This document shows positions 34,536-63,277 of a stretch of DNA of 64,000 nucleotides, piece by piece. Source of the DNA: Amia ocellicauda (taxonomy: Eukaryota; Chordata; Actinopteri; Amiiformes; Amiidae); assembly GCF_036373705.1 (NCBI RefSeq), contig NC_089867.1, positions 20,145,823-20,209,822 of the forward strand. Direction: 5' to 3'. The notes under the pieces are model-generated. The model searched no databases and was not told the DNA's origin. It saw only the letters and a list, made by a program, of their open reading frames with translations. Within the stretch, counting starts at the first letter, position 1. Every line of letters begins with the position of its first letter. The position numbers were made by a program, and so were the translations under genes.

Positions 34536-37500
34536 ATGAAAGTTTCTTTTGGGATGGTAAGTTTTATTCTATTCTTATTTTAATTTAATTATGATATGTG
34601 TATCAAAAAATGTTCATTGGAATCAAATCTCTTTTCATATTACTCCCTAGAACTTGCTACTGCTTTAGATGTATTTTAAACAACTTATGGCACCATATTC
34701 CTAAATAATTGCACAGTAGTAATTCTAGTAATAACCTGCTATTAATCTTGGCCTTATAAATGATTGAATGTCACTAACACATTAACTCTTTATTTACAGA
34801 GCAAATCCAACACAATACAGAACTGACGTACTTCTGTAACAAATAGTGCAACAGTTGCTTGTCTGCAACCAATTTACTAGGCATTGGCTGCTGCTGCTAC
34901 TACTTCTGGTACTTTAATTACATTTATATATAATTAAGTTTCGCCAACGTCTTTATATATCACTAACAATTAAATGTATTTCTACTAAAGCTTTTAGGTT
35001 GCTTATGATACAGTGAGGGAAAAAAGTATTTGATCCCCTGCTGATTTTGTACGTTTGTCCACTTGACAAAGAAATGATCAGTCTATAATTTTAATGGTAG
35101 GTGTATTTTAACAGTGAGAGACAGAATAACAACAACAACAACAAAATCCAGAAAAACACATTTCAAAAAAGTTATAAATTGATTTGCATGTTGAGGGAAA
35201 TAAGTATTTGACCCCTTCGACTTAGTACTTGGTGGCAAAACCCTTGTTGGCAATCACAGAGGTCAGACGTTTCTTGTAGTTGGCCACCAGGTTTGCACAC
35301 ATCTCAGGAGGGATTTTGTACCACTCCTCTTTGCAGATCCTCTCCAAGTCATTAAGGTTTCGCCACCAAGTACTAAGTCGAAGGGGTCAAATACTTATTT
35401 CCCTCAACATGCAAATCAATTTATAACTTTTTTGAAATGCGTTTTTCTGGATTTTTTTGTTGTTATTCGGTCTCTCACTGTTAAAATGCACCTACCATTA
35501 AAATTATAGACTGATCATTTCTTTGTCAGTGGGCAAACGTACAAAATCAGCAGGGGATCAAATACTTTTTTCCCCCACTCTAAATGTCTTTGTGCTTCCG
35601 TTAGGGAAGGCAATGAACTATTTCAACATGTTCTGTCGTGGCTTCTTTTTTGGGCATGTTGTTCTTTGCAGCAATACCATTATTTGAATAACTATTCTTT
35701 GTATTTTGTCATGTTTGTAGTGGTTTTGTGTTCTGTTATCCTGTATGACAACATCTTATGGCTGTAACAATGCGAAAGAGTATGACCATGGTGGAATCTG
35801 CTGTCCAAAGTGTTCCATAGGTAAGGCAATGGCAATCTGTACTTACAATGTCAACAGTAAGAGCTATTATCACACCTGTCAGCCACAATTCACCTGTTCA
35901 CTACCAGATGTCATCTTCCCCTGAATACTAACCCTGCAATCATTAAATTAACATTCCTTCATTCCATGTGCACTTGTCATTATAACCCTCTCGCTCATTG
36001 GTTCTACCTCTCCCCACCAGCTTCACTGGCTCCTCTCTGCCCTGCACTTAAACCCCTGTTTGTGCTTCAGTTACTGCTTAGTTTTGTTTCATTCATTGTA
36101 GCATTTCTAAGCACTACCTCTGGCTATTGACTTTCTTTTGTTCCTGACTTCCTGCCTTTGATTTTTGACCACCCCTTTGGATTGCCTCTTTCAGCCTACA
36201 CATCAATTGACCCCTGGACTGTCTTTAAACCTTGTCTCTTGGACATCCCCTTTGTTTTGTTAGCCGTGCTTCCTGTTTGTGAGCTTTTGGGTTCATCTCT
36301 GCTGTTCTTGGAGTCATTACAGCTATACGCATCTTAACTATTAGTAATTGTGTTGATTATACATGGTCATTGCTTAATACTTGAATACTGATATTTGCTA
36401 CAAACTGTCAAGGTCTACTTACTTTAGTTGTTGCAATGCAACCTTGAAACTGAATGTTTAAAAAGATTTAAATGCTTCCTGTTAGCAGTTAGTTTCACAT
36501 GTGTAACAACAATCCAATAAATGAGAATTAATATCTAATTTATATTAGATTTTTATATGAATACAACCATTAATTACTGCCAGTATTAAAAGGATTATGT
36601 GCATCAAGACAAGCTGCATTTTCTCAGTGAAAGTAAGTGAAATGTTTAAGGAGGTGACTTGGAAGGGCTGGTTAACCATATACAATTCTGTGTGGACTGT
36701 GTGTGCCTTAGGCTTAATTTTTTGCAACTGCTTACACACTTGTTACGGAATTTGTCTCATTGTGTCAAAACTCTACACACAAGCCAAATAAGACGCAACA
36801 CTTGGAGATAAACATCTCGCGTATATGTTGAAATGAAACACTGCGATCAAAACCTAACAATCCTTTTTCAAAATGGTATTTTTGCAACAAAATGATACAC
36901 ACATGCACCATTTGAATTACTCTTTCAAAGCAGCAACAACACACTAATGTACTTTATACAAAATACTGCTGTCTTTAGTACCTTTTTAATTTTCTCATAC
37001 AGGCTTCTGTGAAGGATTGTTCCTGTACAGTACATCTACTCACATTTCAATGAACACAAAAATAGAAAGGCTTCAGAACAAAATATATACAGCTTATTAT
37101 TTTGCCATTTATAGTTTTTACAACAAAAACACACAAAGAAAAGTAGAATTACAGTACTGTAATCAATACAGTATGTTACTATAAACTGTTTGTACTGTAA
37201 AAAAATATTACAGTAGAATTACAGTGCAACGGTAAACACAAAATAGTATTGTAAGAGATGGGGTGGATGGTTTACGGATCCCACCTTCTGTTAAGGTCTG
37301 GCCACATCACCTCATCCACATCACAAGCAATGTCATCCTTGGCTAGGCAATGGGGAAAATATCGCCTTGTGTGCCGTATGGAACCCTGGAGGGACCCCAC
37401 CTCAGTGTCTCCTCAGGCCTCTTCCATTGCTTGCACAACAGGCAGGCGGGCATGTGGTTGGCAGTCATACACTTTCCAACTCCAAGCTGAAAAAAAAACA

Positions 37501-40500
37501 GATTGAGAAATGGGGAGTAAGGGGGCAAGTATACAACTGTGAAGTTATTGTGGTTGTTGACCCAGTCCCTGACCAGAGCAGCCCCAATCAGTTAGTTGAA
37601 ACTAACATTATCCCAGATGACAACAAACCTGGGCTGCTCTGGTCCGTCCTGTACAACTGCATTATGTAGTGCAACCAGAAATGTGATTGTGTGCAGTATT
37701 GTAGGGACCTAGGGTGGCATGGTGATGGAGAACTCCTTGCAGACTAATGGCGGCACACAAGGTGATAATTTCCCAACAGCTCTTTGTCCTATAACATTTC
37801 GGCACCGACGCTTGGTTTTAGCTAGATTCAATCCAGCTTCATCAATGAAAATGAACTCATGAGGCGGTGCAGCTGTATCAGAACAAAAAATGCATACACT
37901 GTACCGTTAATATGGTGTAACTTAAAACACAGGACTACAATGTGTACATTTTTACACAATGATGGGTGTGGGGTGTGGGATGGGTCAGACACATTCAGTC
38001 AAAACTACAAGCTACAGGCAAGGCACGTGCCCCCACAGACAACGAAGGTCTTTGACTCTAACGATGTTCCTCTCAATGGAACAGCTGCTTCATCGTAAGT
38101 TGTTGTTGGCGCAAGATGCGGCAGAGTGTTGAAATACTGATGTGGTTGATATTATGAAATGTTGTGATATCTGCGATTTGCTTTTGTAGTTAATGTTGAA
38201 CCCTTCTTGGAAATAAATGGAAGTTGTTGAGATAAAGCAAATAGAAAATGTATTAACAAGCTAGCTTGGAAGCACCACATCAGGAAATTCCTTCAGTGAG
38301 AACTTAGTTTTTTTACAAACACGGGTGGAGTTTTATTAGGAAAATGATGTAGAATGTTGTGACCGTTCATCCAATCAAAAGGTGCAAGCCTGAGTCCGTT
38401 TACAATCTGTTTTCCCGGGGAGAGGTGTGGGATCCACAAACCAGATGGCTTTCTTCGGGCTCTGTCTTTACCGCGTGGTCCTTTTATCTTAGGAGGAGTT
38501 TCTAACAAATGTACCTTGTTGACCTTTGTGTAGCCTGACTGTCACAGTTCCCTAGCCCTGACCCTCTTCCTCCACTAGAGGCCGCCAATGTTTTCTTGCC
38601 TTTTCCTGCTCCTTTCACTGCTTTCCTTTTTTCTTTCTATCAATTAACATTACAACTCACCCTTGTGCACTTCTACTCCTGTCCTTTGTTCTTATTGGTC
38701 CTGCTCCTGTCCTCCTAGTTCCTGCTCTCCTTTATAAACCCCTCACTGCCCTCACTCTGGGCAAAGTGTTGTCAGCTCTACCTGCTTCTCCGGTTTCCTT
38801 GTTCTCCGGTTTCCTTGTTCTCCGGTTTCCTTGTTCTCCGGTTTCCTTGTTCTCCGGTTTCCTTGTTCTCCGGTTTCCTTGTTCTCCGGTTTCCTTGTTC
38901 TCCGGTTTCCTTGTTCTCCGGTTTCCTTGTTCTCCGGTTTCCTTGTTCTCCGGTTTCCTTGTTCTCTCATGAGTCTAATTTGCTCAGTCTGTATACATGC
39001 TATTATTTATAATGCTAGCATTAATATAAAAACATAAATAGTTATTAAACACTTTGTTCAACTTCCTAATACAGGGTCTTCAGTTGATGTAGGTGGATGG
39101 TGTGGTTTGTCAACATTAGATTGACAATGGCCAGTTCCTGTTTCTTGGGTGAGCAGAGATTGCCTTCCACCCTCAGGAGGTCATCTGGCAGTTTGGTAGA
39201 AAATGCAAGAATATGATGTCATTGGTTAGGTTCTTTTTTTAAATACTTTACTGTCATACTGTACACAGTAATATCAAAACTGTATTACACATACTTCACA
39301 GCACTATACTTATTTTTTTTGTTCACTGAGGATCATAGACCTAATATTGTAGGACTACATTGTATTGTACTGTGATGCAGAATGATGTGCAACAATTACA
39401 TAGCTAGTGTAGAAAGTTGAAAGTTGGATGCTACCGTGTAGCAACGCAGGTTGGGCTGGACTCTCTGCCCAGCCTCCCTCATCGTCAGGCCATGATTTAT
39501 GACATGGTCCACCAAAGTGGCCCTAATGTTGTCAGAAATATGTCACCGTCTATTGCCTGGTCCTCTTTTTTTGTTGTCTTCATCGTCCTCTCTCTCTCTC
39601 GCTCTTGCTCTAATTCTCAGACTAATTGGTGTTCAATTACTGTGTAAGTGTTTTCATGTGTGGGTGTTGCCAATTTCAGGTATGTTTTGCATTTTGAATA
39701 GAAGTGTTTTCCCAATGATTGCAATAGATTTCATTCTTGAACGAAGTGTCTAATGTAAGAAACAGTGTGTAGTGTTTTGCAAGTGTGTTGCAGAATTGCA
39801 AACAAAGTGCAAAGCAGAAAATGTGTTTGTACTTTTGGTGCCTTTGTTTAAGGCATGGTTACAAAGTTAAGGTTTTGATGCTTTTGTCTAAGCATTCACT
39901 TTCAGTGTGTAAGCAATCGACAAAAACTGTAAAAAGGTTGGGAAACATTGGTGCACAGCACTGATGTGTGAATGAGTCATGATAAAAAAAAAGTTCCAGG
40001 AATTGTGATGCAGTGAAGGATCAGATTAATTGATATCCATTTGCTACAAAGGACTTTCAGATAGCCAAGTCTTCTGTTCGCTCATAATAAATGTTGAAAG
40101 TCCTGCAAAAACTCTGACAATCCCACTTTTGGGATTTTTCAAACAGGTACACATGTTAAGAAGCACTGTGATCTCCACACCAGTACGTCATGCTCTGCCT
40201 GTGCAAGTGCAACTTACATGGATCAACCCACTGGACTGACCGAGTGTAAAAGATGCAGAATGTGTGAAGCAGGTTAAAAATATATATTGCTTCTTAATCC
40301 ACTGTACATCGACATATTTATTTTCAAAAAGTTGTTGATAGGAGAGCCTGTTTTTGCAAAAGAAAATGTGTAAGAAAAATTAGATTTTGTTTTATTTTAT
40401 ATTAATCTCCAGATTTTATCAGGCAATTTTTATTCAGGAAGTTAAATGTGTTCTTATATGGATATGTGTGATTATACTAACAGTATTGGGAATGGAACTC

Positions 40501-42429
40501 TGTTTAGTACAGATTGTTGTAAGTACTGTTTTAGCAATGACAGGAAACATAATTTTACCTAATCTCTACTAATGGGATTATGTTGTTATCCTGTTTTGTC
40601 CAATTTACAAATGCATGACAACTGCTTATTCAATCTTTTTTCTGCTGGCCAGAACTAGAAAATGATCAGGAAAACATGTGTTTTGTAAAGGGCAGCCAAA
40701 CATTTAATTTGTGTTGTTATATGTTCCACAGAAACGGGGATGCGATATCAAAAAACATGTACAGCCGAAGCCAATGCAGTCTGCAGATGCAATGAGGGAT
40801 TATTTTGTTCTAATTCAACAGCAGATGGTTGCAGTCAATGTCAGAATTACACTGTGTGTTCCTTAGGACAGTTTGTAAAAGAGAAAGGTGAGGGGGAATG
40901 TTTGTCTTTTTTTCCACGTCTCAAACTAAAAAAAATACTTTAGTATGAAGCTCACAAATGAGTTTACTTATAATGTATGAAGATACAATGTGGTATGAGT
41001 TTGAACTGGCACACAAAGTGGTGAAGTTTTACCCAGCAGCATGGATACGTGCATAGCAAGAGGTTGTTGTCATCACACCGAATTGGTATGCCGAGCAGGA
41101 TCACATATCACTTCCAGTGTACAGGCTGTGGAGAATGGCATCTGATGTTGCATTTAACTCATTCACCAGCTGGGGTTTAACAGAGCTAAACCCCACAGTG
41201 GATTCATGATGCCTTATTATGTGCAACGATCAGTATAATATGGCACAGAAAGAGTAAATTAATATTGACTTGGGACAGTGCCCTGTGTAGATGCCAAATA
41301 TATTCTCTTTGTATTATTATTTCAGCAGGATTCAGTAACTCATGTGCAATTTGCAACTCTGTGTATATCTCCGGGTAGGGCAGGTTAAGTACAGTACAAA
41401 ATTAATCCAAGACCATACAGAGATCAGAAAAACAAAGACAGAGTCTGTGATAAAGTCTGGGCTACATTAGTAACCTCATTGACATCATGTAGTTGATCAG
41501 CAACCAAGAACATAATCTTCTATATGATAGTATGTTACTTAGAAGAACTTTAGATGAGTCGTGATGACTGTACATCTTTGCTATTTATGAACAAACTACT
41601 TTGGTATCATTCTTATTTATCGGGATCTGTGTGTTCTTTGTTCGTCTATCAGTGTCAGAAACTTCTCCCTATCAATATAACATATGATCATCTTGTATTT
41701 ACTCAGTATTCAGGACCACATTCTTAGAAAAGGTTTCAGTACTAAACACTACACAATGCTTACTCATCTTGTTAGGCTTTTATTATTAAAATTATGGTTA
41801 TGTATGTATTTCTTTATATAAGATAAACATTCCCCTCACCCCATTTGTGTTTGTTTTAGGATCCTTAGAAAATGATACTGTATGTGCCGATTGTCCCAGA
41901 AATCACAGTTCAGCCGAGGACTGTAATGCAGAGTAAGTAGCAAATTATTCTTCTCTTGTTAATATTCAGTCATGGCATCATGTTAGTTCATATTGGCTAG
42001 CTGGTTACAATGTTATGTTGTTCACACACTGTACAGAAATACCATCCTAACACATGTCAGTGGATGCATACATGGGTACAAATTGTATAGATTAAATGAT
42101 AAAGGTACCCTCACATTCCATTTTATTAGATGTATTCCTATAGATGCTGGGCTGTGAACACCTAGCTTTGCTGTAGCAGAGAAGAGTACCATGTTGCTTT
42201 CCCCATGATGTCTTTAATGCCCATTTCAAGTTTTTTCTGTCAAAGCCTCTGCCAATCATCCTGCTTAGCCTTTGACATGCACAGATAGGTGACACTGACA
42301 CTGAAACTCTGTTCTCTCAACAGCTGCCAGGAGAAATGTAAAGAGAATACAGGGGCAAGACTTGTGACTTTTAAAGGAATCATTTTTGCAATTGCTGGCA
42401 TTTCTGTATTCCTTTCCAGTGCACAGTAA
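34536..42429 (+). CDS. TNFRSF14 (HVEM)-like receptor 1, no cytoplasmic tail
   Basis: A TNF-receptor superfamily member with six coding exons: 34536-34556, 35721-35820, 40147-40272, 40732-40887, 41860-41932 and 42324-42429. All are in phase and give 193 residues. The signal peptide is residues 1-21 ([16 protein letters not shown]...). The cysteine-rich domains follow: CRD1 at 22-38 ([14 protein letters not shown]), CRD2 to about 83 ([24 protein letters not shown]), a CRD3 with the order [10 protein letters not shown] and [15 protein letters not shown], and a short CRD4 ([11 protein letters not shown]). The exon pattern and CRD1-3 best resemble TNFRSF14. In HVEM, CRD1 binds BTLA/CD160 and CRD2-3 bind LIGHT. 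The protein ends at Gln193 with a hydrophobic segment (177-193) after ENTGA. That fits a GPI-anchor signal or a tail-less membrane span. No TRAF-binding motif is present. Alternative 3' exons cannot be excluded. Confidence 0.85.
34995..35585. mobile_element. Palindromic Tc1-type miniature element (intron of receptor 1)
   Basis: The arms are inverted over about 230 bases. The left arm starts gggaaaaaagtatttgatcc and the right arm ends ggatcaaatacttttttccc. Both arms contain gatcagtctataattttaat or its reverse and the cgacttagtacttggtgg/ccaccaagtactaagtcg pair. The ~110-base centre (ccaccaggtttgcacacatc, then caggagggattttgtacc) is a remnant of transposon coding sequence. The target looks like TA. 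Confidence 0.9.
36713..39930 (-). mobile_element. IS630/Tc1-superfamily transposon, minus strand, decayed
   Basis: The ends are inverted: the left carries ttttgcaactgcttacacac and the right carries gtgtgtaagcaatcgacaaa. The transposase is on the minus strand in broken pieces. The helix-turn-helix part (39480-39620) reads [21 protein letters not shown] linker follows at about 39060-39200. The catalytic part (37260-37860) contains [30 protein letters not shown] and [12 protein letters not shown], the DDE motifs of this superfamily. Stops and frameshifts abolish activity. A non-homologous stretch (about 38520-39050) with a minisatellite is inserted inside. The whole lies in the intron between the second and third coding exons of receptor 1. 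Confidence 0.8.
38786..38961. repeat. 16-bp minisatellite, 11 perfect copies
   Basis: The unit TTCTCCGGTTTCCTTG repeats 11 times without a change. The unit length is not a multiple of three, so long open frames appear in several frames and on both strands, but these are not genes. Confidence 0.97.
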
Positions 42430-44092
42430 TTAAAAAAAATAGGCTTAAAATAGAAAGTATGTATGTTATTCAGACAGTGTTCTTGTCTTCTGGAGAAATG
42501 CCACAAGGTTTTCAAGCCCTTTAATTCCTGGTTAAGACTTTCCCACCGAGGGCCCCAAACACAGTGAATTACCGCATGGTTAAATCCACTAAGTTAGAAG
42601 AGCCACACCCGCATAGTTGCTGGAAAGCTGTTGCACTGTGAAGCTGATGGTACAAACAATGTAATCACTTCCACAGTTCATTGGCTTTAGTACTCTGAGT
42701 CTGGGCATCACATGCTGCAGGTAGAAGCCAGAACACAATTTGGTCTTTGATTAATTAAAAAGTGACTATAGCTTTTCAGACACAAACGGGAGTGACCCTG
42801 GTATCATTCATAACTGAAGGAGAAATAAATACTACTTAGAGTGTACAGCTGTATTATTTAACAGCTGAGAGAGTAAGAATTATTATTATTGTTGTGTTAT
42901 TTAACAGACAACATAGAGAAGTATTATAAATGTATATAGTAGATGTTAGCATGTATAAGAGGTGATGATACAGTGAAGAAACAAACTGCTTATATAACCT
43001 TGGTGGTAATGGTTTTAAATGTGATGAAACATTCCCCATTAAGCTATATTTTGAAATAGTCATGCAGTGACTGGGTCTTATGTTTCTCCAACCTTTAGCA
43101 TTTCAAAATTTCTTAATCAATAAGCTGCTATTTCTACAAACCTTGTTTATACAGGGACTCCACCAAACCTCTCTGGAATGTATGGTTTAGTGCATGTTAG
43201 TGCTTGATGGATAGTTGCAGTAGACTGGTGATTGTGTGAACAATAACAATAACAGGGATGAGAAAAGTATTTATGAGTAGTAAGTATTTAATTAGTAGTG
43301 TAGTAAAACAAATGTTTTCAATATATATTTTCCCAGTATTCATGTTAAGTTAGTCTGTGCACAATATTATATAGCCACTAGAATGAGAGAATATTTTCTG
43401 AACTGAACGTAAGAGGGGGGGGGGAGCTTAATGTCCAGCCCTGCATATGACATTGTACCTATGATGCTGATTAATTTATGATACTGATTAATTCATGTTA
43501 TATAATGCAAAATATGCACCAATATAGATTCCTGGCTGACTGCCTTCAATCTAAACAACTGTTGATATATTAGCTTAAACCATTCTCAAACTGTGTCAGT
43601 TGTGCTCACCTTTCTTTTCAAAGAAATTAATTAGCAGTTGTTTTCCCTCAGTTTGCTTTCTTTCTCTTTCCTGTTTTTCTTTTCTTTTTTTGGTACCCCG
43701 ATTTCTCTTTCTTGGGGAGAGACATGACTCTATCACAGCAGCAGCCACTCCGCTAGATTAGCCACGTTTAGAGATGAATCCTAGTGCAGGGGTCGACTAA
43801 ACCAATGTGTGCCTTTTGCAAGGGGAGAGTGGCCTCAGAGAGCCTCCACTTTTTTTGGGATACAAAGTTCAGTCACTTAACCGATTTATTCAGCCAATTT
43901 ATATTTAGTTATGACACTAATTACTTAGAAATAAAAAAATTGCAAACAAAAACAAATTTTCATTTCAAGCTTTTCGAGGGCCCTCCCCCATTGGGGTCCT
44001 GCGTAGTCAGTCCCACTTTTCCCCCCACTTCAACGCCCCTGCTTGCACCCACATATGGAGCAACAGGAGTAGTGCCAGAAGACAGCAGTGAT
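42430..44092 (+). other. 3' flank of receptor 1
   Basis: Presumed 3' UTR and intergenic sequence. A plus-strand ORF (43784-44140) has a low-complexity proline-rich end and no recognisable domain. It runs into the repeated 3' flank block at 44093, which argues against its being a gene. Confidence 0.4.
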
Positions 44093-45600: not shown

Positions 45601-46111
45601 CAGTGTTTTATTTGTAGTTAATTATAAAAAGATAGAATTGTTTTACTAAGACTGACAACATGTAATACCTTGTGTAGATCAGTGAAACAAAATCCCAATC
45701 CTTGGTGGCAGAATATTTTTTATATTGTTGAGCCATCTCCTCACCATGTGTGAATCGTTGTCTCTCCAACTGACCGTATCAGGAATAGCCTGTCACAGCA
45801 TCTCTCCCATCCCTCTCCCATCACTGAGATTCTCAGTGCTCAGCCAGTTGTGGTTATTTAAGGATGTCTAAGTAAGTTTCACTGAATAAAGGGTGATTTC
45901 TGTTTGTAATATAGCGGAGTTGTTTTCCATTGCAACAAACCCTTACAGTTTAAAAATGTTACAACATACCAGAGAACGTAATTCTGGTGTGCAGATGGAC
46001 CGGACAATGGGAGACTGAAATGCCAACAGATGCAAAGTGAAAATAAAAGTTTTATATCAATGCCCTTTTATGAGAAGCATTCCTCGATTCACGAAGAGAA
46101 GACCCCTTACA

Positions 46112-46144
46112 ATGTCATTAGACATTAAAACCACATATTGGAGG
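46112..46144 (+). CDS. Alternative first coding exon, copy in unit 1
   Basis: Reads MSLDIKTTYWR with donor GTAAGG. It is identical in peptide to 47299-47331. It could splice in phase 0 to the receptor 2 exon at 50219. The upstream in-frame start used in receptor 3 (MKRRPW...) is changed to ACG here. Whether this copy is transcribed is unknown. Confidence 0.55.
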
Positions 46145-46332
46145 GTAAGGAAAATGTAAGAGTGATTTCTAGTGTTTGCTGTTTTGTTAGTCAAAAATAA
46201 CTAACAGTAAAATTTTACTATTAGTTGTTTTAATTTATTATTTTTTGTACATGTTTTGAAGTAGTGTTTTATTTACTTGTCATTAACAATATATTATAGC
46301 CATTTCACCATATCATATTAATTTTTCATATT

Positions 46333-46821
46333 AAAGGGCCTGTGCTTTTTCTGATCTATATTAATGATCTGGACTCTGGGATAGTTAGCAAACTTGTCAA
46401 ATTTGCAGATGATACTAAAATAGGTGGCTCAGCAGATACAATCTCGGCAGCACAGGTTATTCAAAGGGACTTGGATAATATTCAGTTGTGGGCCGACACC
46501 TGGCAGATGAAATTCAATGTGGACAAGTGAAAGGTATTACATGCAGGTAACAAAAATGTCCACTATAATTACACTATGGGAGGAATAGAACTGGATGAAG
46601 TAACGCATGAGAAAGACCTAGGAGTCTATGTGGACTCCTCACTTTCTCCATCCACACAATGTGGGGAAGCAATAAAAAAGGCAAACAGGATATTAGGGTA
46701 TATTGTCAAAAGTGCAGAGTTTAAAACAAGGGCAGTGATGTTCAGACTGTACAATGCACTGGTTAGAGCTCATCTGGAATACTTGCTACCATGTTTGTGT
46801 CACCAGTGGGACATTGAATAA
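46333..46821 (+). mobile_element. CR1-type LINE RT fragment in unit 1
   Basis: Reads LFLIYINDLDSGIV, FADDTKIGGSADTISAAQVI, and, after a TGA where a Cys codon stands in unit 2, KVLHAGNKN, MGGIELDEVTHEKDLGVYVD and LVRAHLEYLL. It is an interior piece of ORF2 with no start or end. It is the same family as 7575-9780 and is dead. Confidence 0.9.
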
Positions 46822-46832
46822 TGTGTGTTAGC

Positions 46833-48019
46833 CTAAGACTGACAACATGTAATACCTTGTGTAGATCAGTGAAACAAAATCCCAATCCTTGGTGGCAGAA
46901 TATTTTTTATATTGTTGAGCCATCTCCTCACCATGTGTGAATCGTTGTCTCTCCAACTGACCGTATCAGGAATAGCCTGTCACAGCATCTCTCCCATCCC
47001 TCTCCCATCACTGAGATTCTCAGTGCTCAGCCAGTTGTGGTTATTTAAGGATGTCTAAGTAAGTTTCACTGAATAAAGGGTGATTTCTGTTTGTAATATA
47101 GCGGAGTTGTTTTCCATTGCAACAAACCCTTACAGTTTAAAAATGTTACAACATACCAGAGAACGTAATTCTGGTGTGCAGATGGACCGGACAATGGGAG
47201 ACTGAAACGCCAACAGATGCAAAGTGAAAATAAAAGTTTTATATCAATGCCCTTTTATGAGAAGCATTCCTCGATTCACGAAGAGAAGACCCCTTACAAT
47301 GTCATTGGACATTAAAACCACATATTGGAGGGTAAGGAAAATGTAAGAGTGATTTCTAGTGTTTGCTGTTTTGTTAGTCAAAAATAACTAACAGTAAAAT
47401 TTTACTATTAGTTGTTTTAATTTATTATTTTTTGTACATGTTTTGAAGTAGTGTTTTATTTACTTGCCATTAACAATATATTATAGCCATTTCACCATAT
47501 CATATTAATTTTTCATATTAAAGGGCCTGTGCTTTTTCTGATCTATATTAATGATCTGGACTCTGGGATAGTTAGCAAACTTGTCAAATTTGCAGATGAT
47601 ACTAAAATAGGTGGCTCAGCAGATACAATCTCGGCAGCACAGGTTATTCAAATCGACTTAGATAATATTCAGTTGTGGGCCGACACCTGGCAGATGAAAT
47701 TCAATGTGGACAAGTGCAAGGTATTACATGCAGGTAACAAAAATGTCCACTATAATTACACTATGGGAGGAATAGAACTAGATTAAGTAACGCATGAGAA
47801 AGACCTAGGAGTCTATGTGGACTCCTCACTTTCTCCATCCACACAATGTGGGGAAGCAATAAAAAAGGCAAACAGGATATTAGGGTATATTGTCAAAAGT
47901 GCAGAGTTTAAAACAAGGGCAGTGATGTTCAGACTGTACAATGCACTGGTTAGAGCTCATCTGGAATACTTGCTACCATGTTTGTGTCACCAGCGGGACA
48001 TTGAATAATGCGTGTTAGC
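46833..48019 (+). repeat. 1187-bp tandem unit 2 (first exon plus LINE piece)
   Basis: Second copy of the tandem unit, nearest to receptor 2. It holds the potential first exon 47299-47331 and the LINE piece 47520-48008. The LINE piece has intact Cys (CKVLHAGNKN) but a stop (gattaag) where unit 1 has ctggatgaag. Confidence 0.93.
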
Positions 48020-51000
48020 CTATTTTTATTTTTTGCTTTGTATTTTTTTCTCACTTATTCACTATAAATCTTTCTTATTACCACTATTATTATGGTCGAG
48101 TCTGATTATTACGTCACGTTTGTTTACTTGGCTTTGTCTCCCTTCACGTCACTGATATGCACGAGTTTTATTCAGGATTGATTTGATTTAAATGCGCACT
48201 TGGCTAATCACGCATTCACGGGAGCACTAGCCTATTCGTCAGTAATTGGCAGTGAGGAGCGCCTGACAGGCCAGAGGTAAAAGCTCCGGGGCTGGTGCTG
48301 AGGAGGGAGATCTAGAGGCGACTGAGAGAGCTGAGACAACCGCTGTGACGCTGACAGAGCATCCAGGGAAAGGACTGCATGCAGGTTTCTTTTTTTGAAC
48401 GACAGTAGTGTTTTACCGAATACGAACCTGTGGACATTGCTACTTTTACATTTTTGTTTCCACTTGCATCCCCTGTTTTTAGTTAAAAAAAAGAAAGAAA
48501 AGAATTCAATCTTTTATTTTTCAATTTTATTTTTACCTCGGTGAATCTATTTGGTGGACTTATTAGTTTTTTGTTGCCACAAATGGACTATTTAAAGTAT
48601 AAGGCATTGGGTTTTTAGTTTTTAATGAGTTTATTTCCTTATTTGGCCATTTTATTATTGGGACTGTACATGGACACTGGTTTCTTGGTCTCCTCAACCT
48701 CGGATGAGAGCAGAAGCTGGATTTGTTGTCCCCGCCCCTCTTTTTACTGTGTTGGGACATGTGGACTATTGCCTGCCCCATTCCAGCTCCTGGTGCTGCC
48801 TGAAGAGACCAACAGTCCCTGCAAGAACTTACATTTTTGGGTTTTAATCTTATTTGTTTTAGTTTAAAGAAGTCTGCCTGATTTTGGCATATATTTGTAA
48901 TAAATTTGATTTAATGGTACTGTCCTGTGTGATCTGTGGTTTGTGAACCCCCAATTTAAAGAACCCAAATCAAAGGGAGAGTTAAGAGGTAGTTTGTGTA
49001 GAGCGGACATATTTGGGGAATTGACCACCTCTCCGCGGGTCCTAGCGCCTGTGAATAATCGCTAGGTGGCGTAGTCGTGCTTGCATACTAGTCTTGCGTC
49101 CAAGTGGAGTAACTTCCACCCAGTGTCGTTTGCTTGACCCTTTATGTTAAGATAAATCATTTCAGTTAATATTAATCATTATATTGGATTCTTCAAATGG
49201 TCTCTCATAGCACCTCCCTGAGCTCAGTTCATTGTGCTGAACAGTAAGCTGGGTGCATGGCATGGTTTTATTCAGCACAGCTGTTGTAAGTCTGTGTGCT
49301 TTTAAACCTGTAATGTGTTTTGGTATTGTAGGGTGAGCAGCTGGTTTTAATTGAACTTCACTCTTCATTGTACAGGATTCGCCCGAGGTAAAGGTTTTAA
49401 GAATCAGTCAAGTTCGGGCTTTTCCAAAAGCCCATTGACAATGTATGTTTTAATGAGTTTTCGGTCCGCTTTGTTTTTCTTATATTCTGTTTTATGAATT
49501 TGAATCTGCTGTAAGATACTTTAATAGTTTATCCTGATTTTTACTGCAATTTCTTCTGTTTGCCCGTATGTTTAGTGTTCTGCAGATTCGTGTATCTGCC
49601 GTGATAGGTGTGTTTGGTCTAGCGGGCAGGTATGTGCACTCCTACACTTTGTTTGATCTGGGGAATGATTGGGTTTATTTATAGCATGCATTTAAGTTAT
49701 ACTTCACTTTGAAACATTTTGTAAGGTTTATTTATATATTTTCTGCACTTTTTATTTATGGCTACAGTCCACTCATGTTGGGAGCAGGGCAAGACATTGA
49801 AGGGAACCTGGGAAAAATAGTTATTGACTTAAGGGCACCTCTTCTGCTGTAATAAACTAGAGGGTGGCATAGTCGACTATAGTCCTTTAGGGGGTGCTAC
49901 ATTTAAATACATTGACAAAATTGAATTAAATGCATGAACTTGGTTTTCACTCTGAATTAAACTATGCCCAAACTAAACTATGCCTATGTCAGAATTAATT
50001 ATTGAATTAAACTATGCCTAGTTTATTTCTATACAACTTCTTGTATCATGGTTATCCGGTGTCATGGAAGAGTATGGTTGAATGAATTCTGTCTATTTTA
50101 TTTTGCATCCAGGTAAACTGCTAGACTTATAATAAATTAATTAGGACTGAAGTGCTATACAACAAACTAGGTGTTTCATAATAAAAACCTAGCTAAATTT
50201 AATGTGATTTATTTTCAGATAAAGACAATACTGTTCCTGCTCTTTCTATGTAAGCTGTGCAGTGGGTGTGGTCGTGCAGAATACAGTATAAACGGAGAGT
50301 GCTGTCCAATGTGCCCCCCAGGTAAATAGAAGGAAGCCAGGCCTGAAATGTTTTACATAATTGAAGTGTATTCTGTCCTTTTAAGTATGTCAATGTTGTG
50401 AGTGTGGTTCCACCCTAGGTGTGGAGAGCAGCAGGCTCTTCTATATTTTCTATTATCTAAGCTCTCTGTAAATGAACTGCCTGAGGCCTAGACCAAATCA
50501 CAGCTGTGATCAACCTGTGAATCTTAGTTACTGATGTTAATTGGTCACAGTTTTCATTTCATACAGTCAATTATTGATGACTGATTTGATGGCTTACAGA
50601 TACTGTATCTATTTTGCTTGTCTTTCTAAGCTTCAGTCTATCTTGGTGGCCTGTTCCTTCGATGTCAGTCATGCTGTACAGTGTTTGTTGTCATGTCAGT
50701 GCAGTGTGTTGTTCTGACTGGACTGGTGATCTTAATCCTCATCACTAGGCAGTAGAGTTCACCGCCACTGTACAGCCCTCTCCAGCACCTCCTGTATACC
50801 GTGTGTAGATGAAACGTACACTGACCAGCCTCATGGTCTGGAAAAGTGCCATCCATGCAGTGTCTGTGATGCAGGTGAGTATACTAGTATAGTGTGTGAA
50901 GAGATGTTGTCCTGATGGATGCTGAAAGAACTCCACACACCCATGTGTGGTAGAGCAGTGTCAGTCTCCTGTACTGCAGTGAGATGCGCACACAGCTGTT

Positions 51001-53761
51001 AATGAACTCAGAGAGGATGGTTGTGTGTTGATTATAGTCTTGGCAGGACAGTTGCTGCTGTGGTCACCTAGTTGCAGTGCTGAAATCCCCCTTGCAGACT
51101 GCCTTCTCCTGCTGTGAAACAATGTATGATTAGGATGTAGTAATATTGTACAGTTAGCATATTTACTATATGCAAGCATTTTCTTCAATTGTCCCATAGG
51201 TCTGGGTTTGGAGACTGTGAGACACTGTACGTCCTCCTCAGACACAGTGTGTACTTGTTTGAAGGGACATTACTGTCAGGAGCCAAACCAAGAGGGCTGT
51301 AAACTGTGCCAGAAACACCGCACCTGTAACCCTGGACAATATATCAAACTGAAAGGTAAGATGCACATTATTTTTAGTAGTGTGCTGCACGATTATTTTA
51401 ATAGATTCAATTTATTTGTTTCCCAGATTCATCAATAGTTTAGCATTTAATAATGGCACCCTTATTACAGATGATATTCTGCAATATTAACCCTACAGTA
51501 TTAATTTGGTTGTCTTACTCTGTTCATGTTCTCTATCCAACTATGGCAAGTATTAACTCCTCACAAAAACATGACTTCAATTTATATTTAAATGATGTGT
51601 AATCAGAACATTCTCATTGTTCTCATTTTATCAAGATAGAATAACACTCCCAATTCATAGCTAGCATTTTGAAGCATTTCTTGTTTTACAAAATGCAGGC
51701 TCTAACCAGTGTCCAGGGCATACGCAGGCATATGCTGTATACCCACTTAAATTTAAAGGAGCTTTGCGTATGCCCACTTAATTTTGGAAGATCTTGCTGT
51801 CTCTAACTCCAAGCATCTACAACAAGGTTACAATCAAAATATTAAAACCTTAAATGTAAACTTGTAAAACCTTTTTATATATAAATTAACCTAATATAAA
51901 TGTAAAAATTGACATGACATCCGCTTAAAGTTATGTTTAATATTCTAATACAACCCTAAACCATTGTGGAAGGAAATGCAAACAAGTACTGAAAACTGCT
52001 CGTATCAACAAGCCATAGCATAGGCAAATATGTTCTGAAACAGAACAGAAAAGTGTCTGAAATGTATACACAGGTCAGTGTCTGGGATCGCCTAAGGCAG
52101 GGATGGTGAACCTTTTTTGGCTGGAGTGCCCAAAGTCTGGTTTGTATACTTTGCAAGTGCCAAAGGGTGCCAATGATAAATTAGAGATGTATAAAAGTTT
52201 ATACAGGACTAAACTGTGTGCGTGTGCAAAACAAATGCAGTTTATCATTGTAATTAAGTTATTAAGCAAACATTACTGCAATACAGAAAAATCTAAAAAC
52301 TATGGACAGATAGATCCCATCCTGCATCCACTGCCAACCTCCCCCCACCTTGAACCCATCCCCGTATCCCTCTGTAGTCTGGAGAGCAAGTGCAGCTGCA
52401 GGGTATGAAGCTGAATGAAGCGAGGCAGATATTCTTCCCAAAAAAGATTATAAATATGCAGGTTTCATTTTTGCTCACAGATTGTCAATTTACAAATATA
52501 AAAAAGCAATAGTAACCGCGCTTCACTAGCTAAATCATTTTTGGAACATGTCCCTTTTTATTTTGGACAATGAGAATCTTTAATCCTCGTTCAAATTAAA
52601 TAAATCAATCTTAAATGTATATAGTGTAATGCCATGCCAAAGCATGTCACAACATTGAAGAATAAAGAATAAGTGCATCATACAATGAATACATCATTTA
52701 AATGTTGCAGTATTGCTACTGTGCAGTAAAATGCATAAATCACATTTTATCACTCATTAAGTTTGTGATTTTAATGGGATTTTTAAATGTACTTTAGCAT
52801 TTAATCCTCAATCTACCCCCAAAAGATTCCCACAGATTCCCCCATTGCCCTGCCGTTACATACTAGAAGTAGGAATTTGTTAATTTGGCTGCATTAGTAA
52901 CCCTTCCATATTGTTTTGTGTTTTGTTTGCACTTGCACTCAATCACTACCAATGTGCCTTCGTTGTTTTCAACGTATATTTACTTTAGTATCTACTTTTA
53001 TACATTTTTTAAAATAACTAAAACTGGTAGATTTAATATAAATTGTGTGGCACTTAGTTTGTTCATTAGTAAGTTTTTTTTTATACAATTCTATACTTAA
53101 AACCCCTACTGTTTAAAATAATTATAAGACTCTGATTTAGGAAATAAGTTAATTTTAAGGGTTCAATTAAGTCATTGAGACCTTGGTTGGAACAAAAACC
53201 AGCAGTGTAGCGGATCCCCCAGAACTAGGGTTGGGAACCACTGGCCTTAGGGATCTTCTACTGGACCTTCTGAAAAATATATTGTCTGTTTTGTGTATCT
53301 AAATGGGATTTTTTTACCATTTAAGGATCATATCGGACTGACACTGTGTGTGAGGGCTGTCCTGCCAACACATTTTCAGACGGCTTTTTAATTGCATGCC
53401 AACGCCACACAGAGTAAGGTTCCTTTTACTCTTGCTTTTTTTAATTGAGATTTAGGTTTAAGAAAAAGTAATGGCTAAAGAAATGTCCATGTATGCATTA
53501 AAAAAAAATCTCATAGTAGAGTGTTTATCACATTTTATGGAGTTTTATACATTTTCTGTATCAGCCTCTCTCTTATCTTATAGCTGTGAATTTCTGGGGC
53601 GAATAACGGAGAAACATGGAACCCCTTCATCTGACGCGGAGTGTGAAAAGAATCCCGTCCCTATTGGTCTGATTGTTGGCATCACAGTTGGGATAGTGAT
53701 TCTAGCAGGAGGAATAGTGGCATTTGTTTTATACAGAAAATTAAAGCTGTCCTATATATAA
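47299..53761 (+). CDS. TNFRSF14 (HVEM)-like receptor 2, eight-residue tail
   Basis: Six exons: 47299-47331 (or the copy 46112-46144), 50219-50321, 50749-50874, 51200-51355, 53326-53413 and 53584-53761. They are in phase throughout and give 227 residues. The signal peptide spans exons 1-2 (MSLDIKTTYWR, then IKTILFLLFLCKLCSG). CRD1 is short (YSINGECCPMCPPG). CRD2 includes TSCIPCVDETYTD and CHPCSVCDAG. CRD3 includes VCTCLKGHYCQ and CKLCQKHRTCNPGQY. CRD4 contains VCEGCPANTFSDG. The membrane span is about 196-219 (GLIVGITVGIVILAGG...) and the tail is RKLKLSYI, with no TRAF motif. The likely role is ligand binding, or ligand presentation to BTLA/CD160-type partners, without signalling. Splice sites are all GT/AG. 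The first-exon choice is inferred from splice signals only. The assignment to TNFRSF14 rather than another TNFRSF member rests on CRD order and Cys spacing. Confidence 0.83.
48020..50218 (+). other. Intron 1 of receptor 2 with an LTR-like stretch
   Basis: The stretch about 48200-49130 contains a GC-richer block with gacagagcatccaggg, an ORF (48625-48867) and an AATAAA at about 48900. It ends ccacccagtgtcg. That looks like the leader or LTR of a retroelement, but I could not find its partner. The part from about 49980 on is paralogous to receptor 3 intron 1 (about 61995 on): both contain a tggaagagt... stretch and ttttattttgcatcc/ttgtattttgcatcc. Confidence 0.4.
52085..53246. mobile_element. 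hAT-like fragments in receptor 2 intron 4
   Basis: Two pieces. One begins caagggatggtgaacc-like (gcagggatggtgaaccttt, about 52098) followed by ggctggagtgccca, a hAT-type end. The other, at 53219-53246, is the reverse of cagtggttcccaaccctag, a common fish hAT end. They probably come from different elements. Confidence 0.5.
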
Positions 53762-54422
53762 TATTGTATTTATGAATTTGCATTTATTCTGCATATGATA
53801 AAATGTATAGTCTTAATTGCATATTATATAATTAATCAAATATTGTATTACTGCATACTACACAGGCCAAGCATTTAGATTATACTGTACAGGAAACTGT
53901 TCTGATCTTCGGCATGAAAGTATTTTTTACTAATGAAGCACAACGTTAAAATAAATACAGTAGCTGTCCAACATTTGACTTTGATATTGACATCTGAAAT
54001 TAAATGAATTAACATTGAAGCCCATGGGATCTGTTTTAGTCTGATCTAATGTATAAGCCATGTGAAACTAGGTAAATCCACAGGTATCTAACTTATTATA
54101 ACAACTTATTTAACTTTGTCTAAATGTCAAGAAACCATAGATGTAATTATAGCTATATAACTGATAGACAGATTTGGGAAGCTGCAGGGCTGTCTGTAGC
54201 AAAGATGCTGTATGAGACAGGAATGGAGACGACACCTCTCAGAGGAATCATCCTCCAGACTGGACATAGACCAATCAGAAATGGGGATTTACTGATTTCT
54301 AAATATCAACTTTGTATTACTTGCATTGCTGTGAAAAAAGCTTTCTGTAGGAGTTATTCATGTTCTCAGAAGTGAGTCCTTTCATAAACCTCATATTACA
54401 AATCAGAAATAACTTTGATACA
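53762..54422 (+). other. 3' flank of receptor 2
   Basis: Likely 3' UTR. AATAAA occurs near 53951. An ORF at 54124-54375 shows no recognisable domain. No further exon that would extend the cytoplasmic tail is visible. Confidence 0.4.
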
Positions 54423-57700: not shown

Positions 57701-58424
57701 TGAACAAGTAACATCATTTATGTAATAGTATAATTTTGATATAGGCTTTGATATATATTTATTAGGGATTTGTTCTAATTTTTTAAACTATTATTCGCTT
57801 TCACTTTCAAAATGAATCAGCTACTTGGACCTTTAAAAGAGAAAACAATCCTATGATTTACACCAGTGTGTTGTACATAGTAGACTTCGGAAGACAGGTT
57901 AATTATTTCACAGTCTGTAACTTCAAGAGAAGCGAAGTTAAAAGAAAAGGACAGTGAGATTTACACTTTGCAAGAGCCACGGTATTTGAGGTCACAATGT
58001 CAGCTCAAATACAGAATTGCAGTGTGAAAATACAGAAACTATTGGAGATCAGATCAGCTATAAATTACAACTGTGAAACAAACGTCAACACTTAAAAAAA
58101 TGTTTTCAACTAATAAATACATTGTTTTGGTGATTTTTGATATCTGTGAAATACAAATTGAGTCTGATGATGTAAAGTAGTTTTTCTGAAGACCCATATT
58201 ATGAGGATTAATTTTATGTATGGCTGATGTTTGTGTCATTTACCATTGTGGAGATATGTGCACAAATATAGAGAGAGGAACAAACTGGCAAAGATAGTCA
58301 AGAGTGGACATGGTTAAAAGAAAGTGAAAACTTTGCTTCTCTATTAAAGTACAATGACAGCTGTTTTCAATCCGCATATTGTCTTGTGGTGTTTTCTCTA
58401 CAAGTGAAGCTTATTATTGTGCAT
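54723..58424. other. Intergenic between receptors 2 and 3
   Basis: The stretch 55105-55545 (gtcacgaggaggctgccaga, then caggcgcagagcgagagg) has the look of an LTR or a short retroelement leader. No partner is seen. The remainder is AT-rich. A few CpGs lie near 56610-56760 and 57180-57260. No coding exon found. Confidence 0.35.
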
Positions 58425-58560
58425 ATTGGGCAGCAGTGTGGAGTTGTGATTAGGGCTCTTGCATTGTGGAGCAGAGGGCGTGGGCTCAATCAAGGTGGGG
58501 GATAATGCTGTAGTACCCTTGAGCAAAGTACTTTACCTGCATTGCTCCAGTGAAAAAAAA
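58425..58560 (+). repeat. tRNA-type SINE (5' part)
   Basis: Contains gggcagcagtgtggagttgt and gattagggctcttgc (promoter region), then gtagtacccttgagcaaagt and tttacctgcattgctccag. It lacks the 3' tail and runs into the LINE at about 58560. Confidence 0.75.
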
Positions 58561-59660
58561 CAAAGTCTCATTTACAGTTCAATGCAAAAAAAAAACATAT
58601 ACAATATATACACAAATATACAGACATAAAATACATACACATTTAAAAAAAAAAATCACATTTAATAACAAAAAGCTCTGAAAGCAGTCTTCTGAATCAC
58701 CCCATAGACACCAGAGCATCCAACCTCAAGGTTCCTTGCAATCTATTCCATGTATAAGGTGCAATATAAATAAAGGCATACTTCCCTATGTGCATAGAAA
58801 TTGCAGGTAACCAAAGTGTAATATAATTAGTTGACATTGTTTTATAACTAATACTTCGATGGGAAATTAATGAAAAAAAGAAATTGGAAGTTTTTGTTTT
58901 AGTGCTTTATACATGAACAGGACAATATGCTGCTCCCTTCTAGCATATAAAGAGTCCCAGTCTACCTTTAAATACAAAGAACAATGGTGAGTTTTAAAGT
59001 CAGAACTAGTAATAAACCTTAGTGCACTATGATATACAGCATCAAGGGGTTTAAGTGTAGATGCTGCTGCATTCATGTAAATAATGTCGCCATAGCAGCT
59101 TGAACAATTTTCTTCCTATTAATAGATGTTAAGCAGGCTTTGTTCCTGAAAAGAAACCCAATTTTGAACCTTAGTTTTCTTATCAACTCAGTTACATGAA
59201 AGACAACTTGTCATCGAGCCATATGCCAAGATATTTGAAATAATTAACTATTTCAACTATACCATTGAGATTACTAATTTCAAAATAATGTAGGTCTAAA
59301 TTATGTGAACTAGAAAAGAGCATGCACTTTGTCTTCCTTGCATTAAACACAAACTTAAAATCAGAAAGTGTTTTCTGTAGTACTAAAAAATCGGATTTCA
59401 ATTTTAAAAATGCTCAATAGTGGGAGCAATGGAATACAATATCATCAGCATATAAGTGATTTTTGGAGTGTTTATATTATCATTGATGTTATTTATATAA
59501 ATGATGAACAATAATGGAGCTAATATTGAGCCTTGTGGAACCCTTTTTTGTAGCTCAAGAAAGTCAGATTTCATACCATCTACCCTGATGGCTTGGGTTC
59601 TTTCATGGAGATCATTACTGAACCACAAACAGACATCACAGCACAAACTTATCAAAGAAA
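58560..59660 (-). mobile_element. L2-like LINE RT fragment, minus strand
   Basis: On the minus strand, in pieces: LNEFSLISLCCDVCLWFSND, then RTQAIRVDGMKSDFLELQKR, VPQGSILAPLLFIIYIN, FKFVFNARKTKCMLFSS, YFKYLGIWLDDKLSFM, and YHSALRFITSS with DWDSLYARREQHI. These are RT and post-RT blocks of the L2/Rex-like LINE clade, in broken frames. It differs from the CR1-type family at 7575-9780. Confidence 0.85.
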
Positions 59661-60480
59661 ACTCATTTAGCAAAATGGCATGGACATGGTCAGAAACAAT
59701 GCTCAGGTAGGCCGTGGCATTTAAACGATGCCCAATTGACACTAAGGGGCCTAAAGTGTGCCAAGAAAACATCCCCCACACCATTACACCACCACCAGCA
59801 GCCTGCACAGTGGTAACAAGGCATGATGGATCCATGTTCTCATTCTGTTTACGCCAAATTCTGACTCTACCATCTGAATGTCTCCAGTCTTCAACTGTCC
59901 AATTTTGGTGAGCTTGTGCAAATTGTAGCCTCTTTTTCCTATTTGTAGTGGAGATGAGTGGTACCCGGTGGGGTCTTCTGCTGTTGTAGCCCATCCGCCT
60001 CAAGGTTGTACGTGTTGTGGCTTCACAAATGCTTTGCTGCATACCTCGGTTGTAACGAGTGCTTATTTCAGTCAAAGTTGCTCTTCTATCAGCTTGAATC
60101 AGTCGGCCCATTCTCCTCTGACCTCTAGCATCAACAAGGCATTTTCGCCCACAGGACTGCCGCATACTGGATGTTTTTCCCTTTTCACACCATTCTTTGT
60201 AAACCCTAGAAATGGTTGTGCGTGAAAATCCCAGTAACTGAGCAGATTGTGAAATACTCAGACCGGCCCGTCTGGCACCAACAACCATGCCACGCTCAAA
60301 ATTGCTTAAATCACCTTTCTTTCCCATTCAGACATTCAGTTTGGAGTTCAGGAGATTGTCTTGACCAGGACCACACCCCTAAATGCATTGAAGCAACTGC
60401 CATGTGATTGGTTGGTTAGATAATTGCATTAATGAGAAATTGAACAGGTGTTCCTAATAATCCTTTAGGTGAGTGTATAC
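59655..60480 (-). mobile_element. Tc1-like transposon, minus strand, truncated
   Basis: The transposase begins at 60327 on the minus strand: MGKKGDLSNFERGMVVGARR, then the helix-turn-helix (SISQSAQLLGFSRTTISRVY) and a second DNA-binding part (ADRRATLTEISTRYN). A partial catalytic domain follows (GGGVMVWGMFSWHTLGPL). The segment after NWTVEDWR that should carry the first catalytic Asp is missing, and the C-terminus is replaced by LINE sequence at about 59655. The outer right end is tccttt then aggtgagtgta at 60465-60478. Confidence 0.9.
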
Positions 60481-61630
60481 ACCTGTTCTGAAAGTCCCCA
60501 GAGTCTGCAACACCGTCAAGCAAGTGGCACCGCCAAGCAAGTGGCACCGCCAAGCAAGTGGCAGTGGCACCGCCAAACAAGTGGCACCATGATAACCAAG
60601 GAGCTCTCCAAACAGGTCAGGGACAAAGTTGTGGAGAAGTAGAGATCAGGGTTCCCATCCCACTGAGCACCAATAAATCCATTATTGAAAAATTGAAAGA
60701 ATATGGCACCACAACAAACCTGCCAAGAGAGGGCAGCCCACCAAAACTCACAGACCAGGCAAGGACGGCATTAATCAGAGAGGCAACAAAGAGACCAAAG
60801 ATAACCATGAAGGAGCTGCAAAGCTCCACAGCGGAGATTGAAGTATCTGTCTATAGGACCACTTTAAGCTGTACACTCTACAGAGCTGGGCTTTATGGAA
60901 GAGTGTCCAGAAAAAAAGCCTTTGCTTAAAGCAAACAAATTTGCTGTTTGCCAAAAGGCATATGGGAGACTCCACAAACATATGGAAGAAGGTACTCTGG
61001 TCAGATGAGACTAAAATTGAGCTTTTTGGCCATCAAGGCAAACGCTATGTCTGGTGCAAACCCAGCACCTCGCATCACCCCAAGAACACCATGCTGTGGC
61101 ATCGTGCTGTGGGATGTTTTTCATCAGCAGGGACTAGGAAACTGGTCAGAATTGATGGAATGATGGATGGCGCTAATTACAGGGAAATTCTTGAGGGAAA
61201 CCTGTTAGTCTTCCAGAGATTTGAGACTGGGACAGAGGTTCACTTTCCAGCAGGACAATGACCGTAAGCATACTGCTAAAGCAACACTCGTGTGGTTTAA
61301 GGGGAAACATTTAAATGTCTTGGAATGGCCTAGTCAAAGCCCAGACCTCAATCCAATTGCAAATCTGTGGTATGACTTTAAGATTGCTGTGCAACCAGTG
61401 GAACCCATCCAACTTGAATGAGCTGGAGCAGTTTTGCCTTGAAGAAGTATTGACTTTGGGGGGGTGAATAGTTATGCACGCTGAAGTTTTCTGTTTTTTT
61501 TCTTCAAAGTGGTAGCATGTTGTGTAAATCAAATGATGCAAACCCCCAAAATTTTTATTCCAGGTTGTAAGGCAACAAAATAGGAAAAATGCCAAGGGGG
61601 TGAATAATTTTTGCAAGGCACTGTACAGGT
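60481..61630 (+). mobile_element. Tc1-like transposon, plus strand, dead
   Basis: A second Tc1 copy in the opposite orientation, in many frames. Visible parts: KELSKQVRDKVVEKY (60597), LTDQARTALIREAT (60748), [20 protein letters not shown] (60986-61045), [18 protein letters not shown] (61096-61150), and the C-terminal LEWPSQSPDLNPIANLWYD (61320-61376). The right end reads gcaaaaattattcacccc in reverse (61590-61620). In-frame stops and shifts are frequent. Confidence 0.9.
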
Positions 61631-61828
61631 TGTTACTAAACATTTAACTACCACTCCATAGAAATTAAGAGCATGGAGTTCAAAGTCCAATGTATTCATG
61701 TTTTTATACATGTGGGGGGGGAGGGGGGAAAGGTAAATATCCTTTGTGTTGGATACCTGTCTGTTTGGATGTTTTGTGATTTCCACCAGATCTGTTACCC
61801 CCACTGTGTGCTCTGAGTTCCTCAGATC

Positions 61829-62213
61829 ATGAAGAGAAGACCCTGGACAATGTCACTCGACATTAAAACCACATATTGGAAAGTAAGTTTGTTTTTGTTA
61901 TTTAAATTTAACTATTAGCTGTTTGTGACTAATTTCATTTTATTTATTATATTGTTTGAGGAGGTTTAGTAGATGTTCTAAAAAGTAAAGTAAAACTTAT
62001 TATATCACGATTATCCATTTTATGGAAGAGTGTGATTTAATTTTGTTTATTGTATTTTGCATCCTAAAACTGGTAGAATTATAATCAGTTGATTTGGTAG
62101 GAATTAAGTGCCATACAAATTGACCAGCTGTGTGAAAGAGAACATTTAATATACCAAGCTGAGAAAGCATAGTTTGTCAATTAATGATTAACATTTGAGA
62201 CTGGACATTGAGT

Positions 62214-62301
<88 letters not shown>

Positions 62302-63277
62302 ACTCAAAGGTTCAATGATTTTACATTATTTAAAATGTACTCAAGATTCAGGTTTCTGCAATGTAATGATTCCAAAACTCAAAGTAATTATCAGTATCTT
62401 TCTACAACTGTCAGTATTTTGTATTTTTTTGAATGTATGGAACAGTGTAACTTTTTGAATCCCAAAACCTCTGCATTTTTTTAAAGTTCATGTTATGACA
62501 AACTGGATGCATTTCATACTAAAAATAAGTTATTTGTATCTAATTTCTTTATTTTCAGATAAAGACAATACTGTTCCTGCTCTTTCTATGTAAACTGTGC
62601 AGTGGGTGTGGCCGTGCAGAATACAGTATAAATGGAGAGTGCTGTCCTATGTGCCCCCCAGGTAAATGGAAGGAAGCCAGGCATGTGTGGGGAATGGAGT
62701 GGAGGTCGAGTGAACATAATTGTGAATTTATTTAGACTGCAGTAAGTGTGCAGTCTTAAATTTATATATTAAGTTATGGAAGCATATTTTGTCCTTTTTA
62801 AATCTCTTAATGTTGTAAGTGAAGTTCCACCCTAGTTGTGGAGAGCAGCAGGCTCTTCTACATTTCGGACATCTGAGCTCTCTGTAAGTGAACTGTTTGA
62901 GGCCTAGACCAAATCACAGCTGTGAATCTTAGTTATTGCTCTTAATTGGTCACAGTTGCCATTTGATGCAACACTTCGTGATGACTGATTGATGGCTTAC
63001 AGATACTGTATCTATTGTGCTTGTCTTTCTAAACTTCAGTCAATCTTGGTGGCCTGTTCTTTCCATGTCAGTCGTGCTGTACAGTGTTTGTTGTCATGTC
63101 AGTGCAGTGTGTTGTTCTGACTGGACTGGTCATCTTAATCCTCATCACTAGGCAGTAGAGTTCACCGCCACTGTACAGACTTCTCCAGCACCTCCTGTGT
63201 ACCTTGTGGTGATGAAACCTTCACTGACCAGCCTAATGGGTTAGATAAATGCCGGGTGTGTAGTGTCTGTGATGCAG
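61829..63277 (+). CDS. TNFRSF14 (HVEM)-like receptor 3, first three exons (gene cut by window)
   Basis: Exons 61829-61882, 62559-62661 and 63152-63277 are in phase. Exon 1 reads MKRRPWTMSLDIKTTYWK. The second Met (MSLDIKTT) corresponds to the start of receptor 2, so either may be used. Exon 2 is almost identical to that of receptor 2 (IKTILFLLFLCKLCSGCGR, then EYSINGECCPMCPPG). Exon 3 covers CRD2 (TDFSSTSCVPCGDETFT, CRVCSVCDAG) with more differences. Intron sequences also match receptor 2, which makes this a recent duplicate. The remaining cysteine-rich domains and membrane end lie to the right, so it is unknown whether this copy keeps a signalling tail. Confidence 0.85.
62219..62297. repeat. 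(AT)n microsatellite in receptor 3 intron 1
   Basis: About 39 uninterrupted AT units. Open frames that read as Tyr-Ile repeats are artefacts of the dinucleotide run. Confidence 0.97.

Follow-up and report, generated by a model that had tools for sequence, protein, structure and literature searches.

The analysed window, 64,000 nucleotides of the Amia ocellicauda genome (contig NC_089867.1), is the left part of a larger tandem array of HVEM-like (TNFRSF14-like) receptor genes. The two receptors that are complete within the window, R1 and R2, have no signalling tail as gene models. On balance we favor the reading that both display an HVEM-type ectodomain at the cell surface, have no tail for signalling and act as non-signalling binders. 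The ectodomain of R1 would be held on a GPI anchor and that of R2 by a membrane span, followed by an eight-residue tail left by the loss of a splice donor, and neither receptor would send a signal. Both would either sequester a TNF ligand of the HVEM type or present the HVEM CRD1 surface to putative BTLA-type inhibitory receptors on other cells.

To follow the array beyond the window, we added sixteen 10-kb stretches from both flanks, one of which shares 4 kb with the window, and searched the combined sequence with R1 and R2. Window and flanks together hold nine HVEM-like loci, all on the + strand and spread over ~100 kb. R1, R2 and the beginning of R3 lie in the window. The search for further copies to the right, which the first-pass annotation had proposed, found the other six loci there, in window coordinates at 71999-74332 (R4), 92617-95714 (R5), 107668-110907 (R6), about 117.4-119.05 kb (R7), about 128.2-131.3 kb (R8) and about 135.06-137.1 kb (R9, the rightmost clear match). 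Receptor fragments are present near 82.6 kb and 114 kb, and inverted relics of R7-type exons lie on the - strand at 16930..16971 (exon 5) and 16299..16403 (exon 6, lacking one cysteine), with a second inverted relic of R7-type exons 5-6 at -7.2 to -7.7 kb. To the right of R9 no comparable match to R1 or R2 was found up to 180 kb, nor did R2 or R9 as queries find one at 180-200 kb or at -60 to -40 kb. A genome-wide Pfam search for TNFR_c6 (988 Mb, 385 contigs) gave 23 matches, five of them in the array (R2-R6). Since R1, R7, R8 and R9 are absent from this list, other HVEM-like genes may be missed as well.

R1 (34536-42429) and R2 (47299-53761) were modelled on the + strand with six exons each. 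Neither translation contains an internal stop, all five introns of either gene are flanked by AG/GT, and the cumulative exon phases (0,1,1,1,2) are identical. The predicted proteins comprise 193 aa for R1 and 227 aa for R2. In R1, exon 1 (34536..34556) provides the start codon and the first part of the signal peptide, and exon 2 (35721..35820) the remaining signal peptide and the first half of CRD1. Exon 3 (40147..40272) covers CRD1-CRD2 and carries the Pfam TNFR_c6 match, exon 4 (40732..40887) covers CRD2-CRD3, exon 5 (41860..41932) is 15 nt shorter than its counterpart in R2, and exon 6 (42324..42429) encodes a shortened stalk and the C-terminus. The exons of R2 are located at 47299..47331, 50219..50321, 50749..50874, 51200..51355, 53326..53413 and 53584..53761, the last one encoding the end of CRD4 and the membrane span. 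An AATAAA follows on the same strand at 53950..53955, in a block that can be aligned in R3, R4, R6 and the 114-kb fragment. The first three exons of R3 (61850..61882, 62559..62661 and 63152..63277, + strand) measure 33, 103 and 126 nt, exactly as in R2. GT follows these exons, and the gene runs on rightward beyond the window with exons 4-6 at 64314-65236. First exons of R1, R2 and R3 were placed by position and frame alone. The reading frames of R2-R6 are open through exon 6. The common layout of three same-strand genes that had been described for this region is thus seen in the phases of R1 and R2 and in the exon lengths of R3, while the number three applies to the window only.

Several repeats and mobile elements are interspersed with these genes. 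The second intron of R1 contains a minisatellite with 16-base units (38781-38966). A tandem duplication of 1187 bases with ~99% identity (45639-48010) doubles the first exon of R2, together with upstream DNA and a retroelement-like fragment, so that a second copy of this exon lies at 46112..46144 (+ strand). Between R2 and R3 we identified by eye Tc1-like transposase ORFs at 59404-60327 (- strand) and 60492-61261 (+ strand).

Pfam TNFR_c6 was detected in R1 (2.5e-8) and in three stretches of R2 (3e-22), placing both in the TNF receptor superfamily; a search of NCBIfam gave no match. Among solved structures in the PDB, R2 matches ELR1 best (1.5e-35), followed by HVEM (1.8e-30) and CD40 (6.2e-28). 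For R1 the scores were 93 bits for HVEM, 89 for ELR1 and 53 for CD40 (best E = 1.8e-25), and for R9 101 bits for ELR1, 93 for HVEM and 87 for CD40. HVEM or ELR1 was therefore the top PDB match for all three proteins run (R1, R2 and R9), with a wide margin over CD40 for R1 and a modest one for R2 and R9, and the proposal of HVEM-type receptors was borne out to this extent. R2-R4 show 39-45% identity to both HVEM and horse ELR1, and the cysteine pattern is the same: all 22 ELR1 cysteines are kept in R2-R6 and R9, and 20 of the 22 in R1, R7 and R8. R1 lacks part of CRD4. CD40 (TNFRSF5) is the next best match, but needs a gap in CRD3 when aligned to these receptors. Plain identity shows no preference for R9 (36% HVEM, 37% ELR1, 36% CD40) and little for R3 (39% HVEM, 42% ELR1, 38% CD40). 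A tree of 12 rows, with only three outside sequences, puts R1, R9 and CD40 on long branches and leaves four of nine inner branches open. Human TNFRSF14 has a longer TRAF-binding tail; such a cytoplasmic tail is missing from the gene models of R1 and R2, and we therefore class the receptors as HVEM-like rather than as HVEM. The cytomegalovirus protein UL144, a BTLA ligand, also has HVEM-like CRDs and matched R2 with 6.1e-8, but is viral and shorter; a viral origin of the receptors was rejected, as a search of viral contigs found no relative of R2.

R7 and R8 lack the identical two of the 22 cysteines, as though one disulphide had been dropped. Their similarity is mosaic (about 117.4-119.4 kb versus 128.1-131.6 kb), with 99.5% near exon 4, 97% near exons 5-6, 89% near exon 3 and 85% near exon 2, which hints at gene conversion.

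We then compared the C-terminal ends of the receptors. As had been noted, the R1 model stops directly after a hydrophobic end of 17 residues. These are uncharged and are preceded by a spacer and an omega-like N-T-G pattern starting at N167, which makes a GPI anchor likelier than a bare span for R1. R1 satisfies a rule of thumb for GPI-type ends, and R2 and R9 fail it. TNFRSF10C, a GPI-anchored decoy receptor for TRAIL, offers a precedent for what R1 would be: it displays the ectodomain of a TNF receptor through a GPI anchor and does not signal. Its ectodomain is that of a TRAIL receptor, however, and it is absent from the 48 PDB matches of R2 and the 34 of R1. In R2 only RKLKLSYI follows the span before the stop, again in agreement with the earlier description. 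The alignment of exon 6 from R2-R6 shows that R2 lacks the bases that form a donor in R3-R6, so that the short end of R2 is probably a secondary state, seemingly brought about by loss of the donor. R9 ends with ICRNRK and a stop; two donor-like sites (3.56 and 0.05) lie within its span and none past the span in the scanned stretch, and R9 is probably tail-less as well.

An alternative that we consider somewhat unlikely, though the strongest of those weighed here, is that the loci encode ordinary signalling HVEM-like receptors whose tail lies in missed downstream exons. R2, and perhaps R1 and R9, would then be exceptions or would use a weak donor for a long isoform. The remaining copies speak for it: donors just past the span, scored with a weight table, reach 7.25 in R3, R4 and R5, 4.10 in R6 and 8.07 in R7, whose sequence is repeated in R8. 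Since R3-R8 keep these donors, most members of the array may have tails. Moreover, a block with a pyrimidine-rich acceptor is common to R3, R5 and the 114-kb fragment, and an extension of 31 residues is possible from the first R3 acceptor. Read in phase 1, the block adds a single residue before a stop in R5, as does, by eye, the second R3 acceptor. The same scoring speaks against a tail on R1 and R2, where the scanned stretches (42360-42480 and 53690-53800) contain no donor-like site scoring at least 0 ahead of the stop; the donor-like sites of R1 in its stretch (2.76 and 0.92) fall past the stop. No TRAF motif, judged by motif patterns, occurs in any of the 36 longest frames opened by 62 acceptor-like sites below R3-R8, which makes a hidden tail less likely. 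Comparing the sequences that follow R1-R6 and the 114-kb fragment did not reveal a long tail exon, and when all phase-1 frames were compared against each other, the shared peptides among the matches listed were repeat-like, due to intron similarity or from short frames. The idea of a tail-less family thus holds for R1 and R2 but is not uniform across the array, and the search for a long-tailed copy to the right of the window yielded the donors of R3-R8 without a TRAF motif in the 36 frames.

About 100 bases below R2 (54166-54265) have copies below R4 (76511-76610) and R6 (113340-113430) that are 86-87% alike, more so than the surrounding DNA; window and flanks contain no further copies. Judged by eye, we rejected this block as a tail exon, as no pyrimidine tract lies ahead of it and the differences between R2 and R4 are not biased to third positions.

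The pattern of substitutions also bears on whether the receptors signal. We calculated dN/dS over the 10 pairs of R2-R6; R1 is too distant to be included. Over 163 codon columns of the ectodomain dN was 0.097 and dS 0.275, a ratio of 0.35 (95% interval 0.24-0.53). For the span and its flanks (32 columns) dN rose to 0.392 with a dS of 0.255, giving a ratio of 1.54 (0.82-3.46). Pair means yielded 0.35 for the ectodomain and 1.50 for the span. The order of the two ratios was reversed in none of 2000 bootstraps, and the dN of the span was equalled in none of 2000 permutations. A constrained ectodomain next to an unconstrained, poorly conserved membrane segment is more in keeping with an anchored binder than with a receptor that signals, and the contrast favors, without proving it, the absence of any specific signalling contact in the span. 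Hydrophobic residues are readily exchanged within membrane spans, and this one aligns with gaps, so that the high ratio is weak evidence against signalling.

Selection speaks likewise to a further explanation, according to which copies in the array arise and die quickly, R1 and R2 are already in decay, and their short ends reflect damage rather than function. Relics are indeed frequent (near 82.6 kb, 114 kb, the inverted exons at 16.3-17.0 kb and those at -7.2 to -7.7 kb), and the lost donor and duplicated first exon of R2 as well as the missing part of CRD4 in R1 would suit such decay. Against this, both genes are open across six exons with canonical splice sites, the ELR1 cysteines are retained (22/22 in R2, 20/22 in R1), and the four pairs that include R2 show an ectodomain dN/dS of 0.24-0.37. 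We regard decay of R1 and R2 as improbable. The R3-R4 pair has an ectodomain dN/dS of 0.72.

With respect to the partners of the proposed non-signalling binders, PMC8558838 names the positions A85, Q95, Q97, M98 and D100 of human and H86, L90 and L94 of mouse HVEM on the LIGHT side; the residue numbers given there agree with the letters of the matched HVEM PDB chain. In our alignment, which compares positions only, R2 keeps two of these eight positions (L90 and D100), and a role as LIGHT decoy is thereby weakened. The D100 column holds D in eight of the nine loci and E in R1. The ectodomain column most often replaced in R2-R6 is equivalent to K64 in CRD1, and CRD1 as a whole is still constrained (overall ratio 0.32). 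When K64 was changed along with two other positions, mouse HVEM bound all of its ligands less well (PMC8558838). Judged from these sequence comparisons, R1 and R2 may be either decoys for an HVEM-type TNF ligand or ligands of BTLA-type receptors, with neither role preferred. A more specific scenario, to which we give a low probability, is that this lineage has converted HVEM into a series of ligands that have an anchor only, with a GPI link in one or more of them. The CRD1 contact patch would vary from copy to copy in step with an enlarged set of BTLA-like inhibitory receptors, and the membrane segment would drift as only the ectodomain works.

HVEM is a signalling receptor and at the same time a ligand of BTLA and CD160. 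Copies with the binding domain but without the tail would split these two roles in nature and would make it possible to test which of the two underlies the multiplication of HVEM genes in fish. Such copies would also advise caution in equating expression of a fish 'tnfrsf14' with NF-kappaB signalling unless the copy has been checked. Published studies report several TNFRSF14 paralogues in anchovy gill (PMC13403563), discuss salmon tnfrsf14 as a signalling gene (PMC11467335) and treat sea bream tnfrsf14, together with btla, as a receptor in stimulating and inhibiting pathways (PMC10499179); the latter cites a 2007 paper whose title mentions 'multiple BTLAs' in jawed vertebrates. A 2018 review (PMC6001812) places an HVEM homologue in lungfish only and not in teleosts, as per a study cited there. 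BTLA is reported to control B cells that bear HVEM without a need for these cells to signal through HVEM (PMC6703922). Among the open-licence papers listed in our literature searches, we found none on a tail-less or GPI-linked fish HVEM.

To the left of the array an ORF resembles LRRC47 (130 bits, colinear), although other leucine-rich proteins score higher, and a match to CEP104 remained below threshold. In the human genome, LRRC47 and CEP104 lie near TNFRSF14 on 1p36. The end of the LRRC47-like gene is part of a broken tandem segmental duplication between about -25.3 to -11.7 kb and -3.3 to 14.4 kb. It consists of eleven aligned pieces of more than 400 bases, 11,439 bases in total with a mean identity of 95.8%; one of them matches a mobile element, and another contains the receptor relic. 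Coding-looking ORFs of a duplicated gene (…YYTKQRIVHWVLKVNASLF…) lie at 442-3383, with a copy near -20.8 to -18.0 kb that gave no Pfam match when joined. Finally, a coiled-coil-like ORF on the - strand (24170-24574) matched the C-terminal domain of acyl-CoA-binding proteins 4-6 with 27.9 bits, under the cut-off of 31.2.
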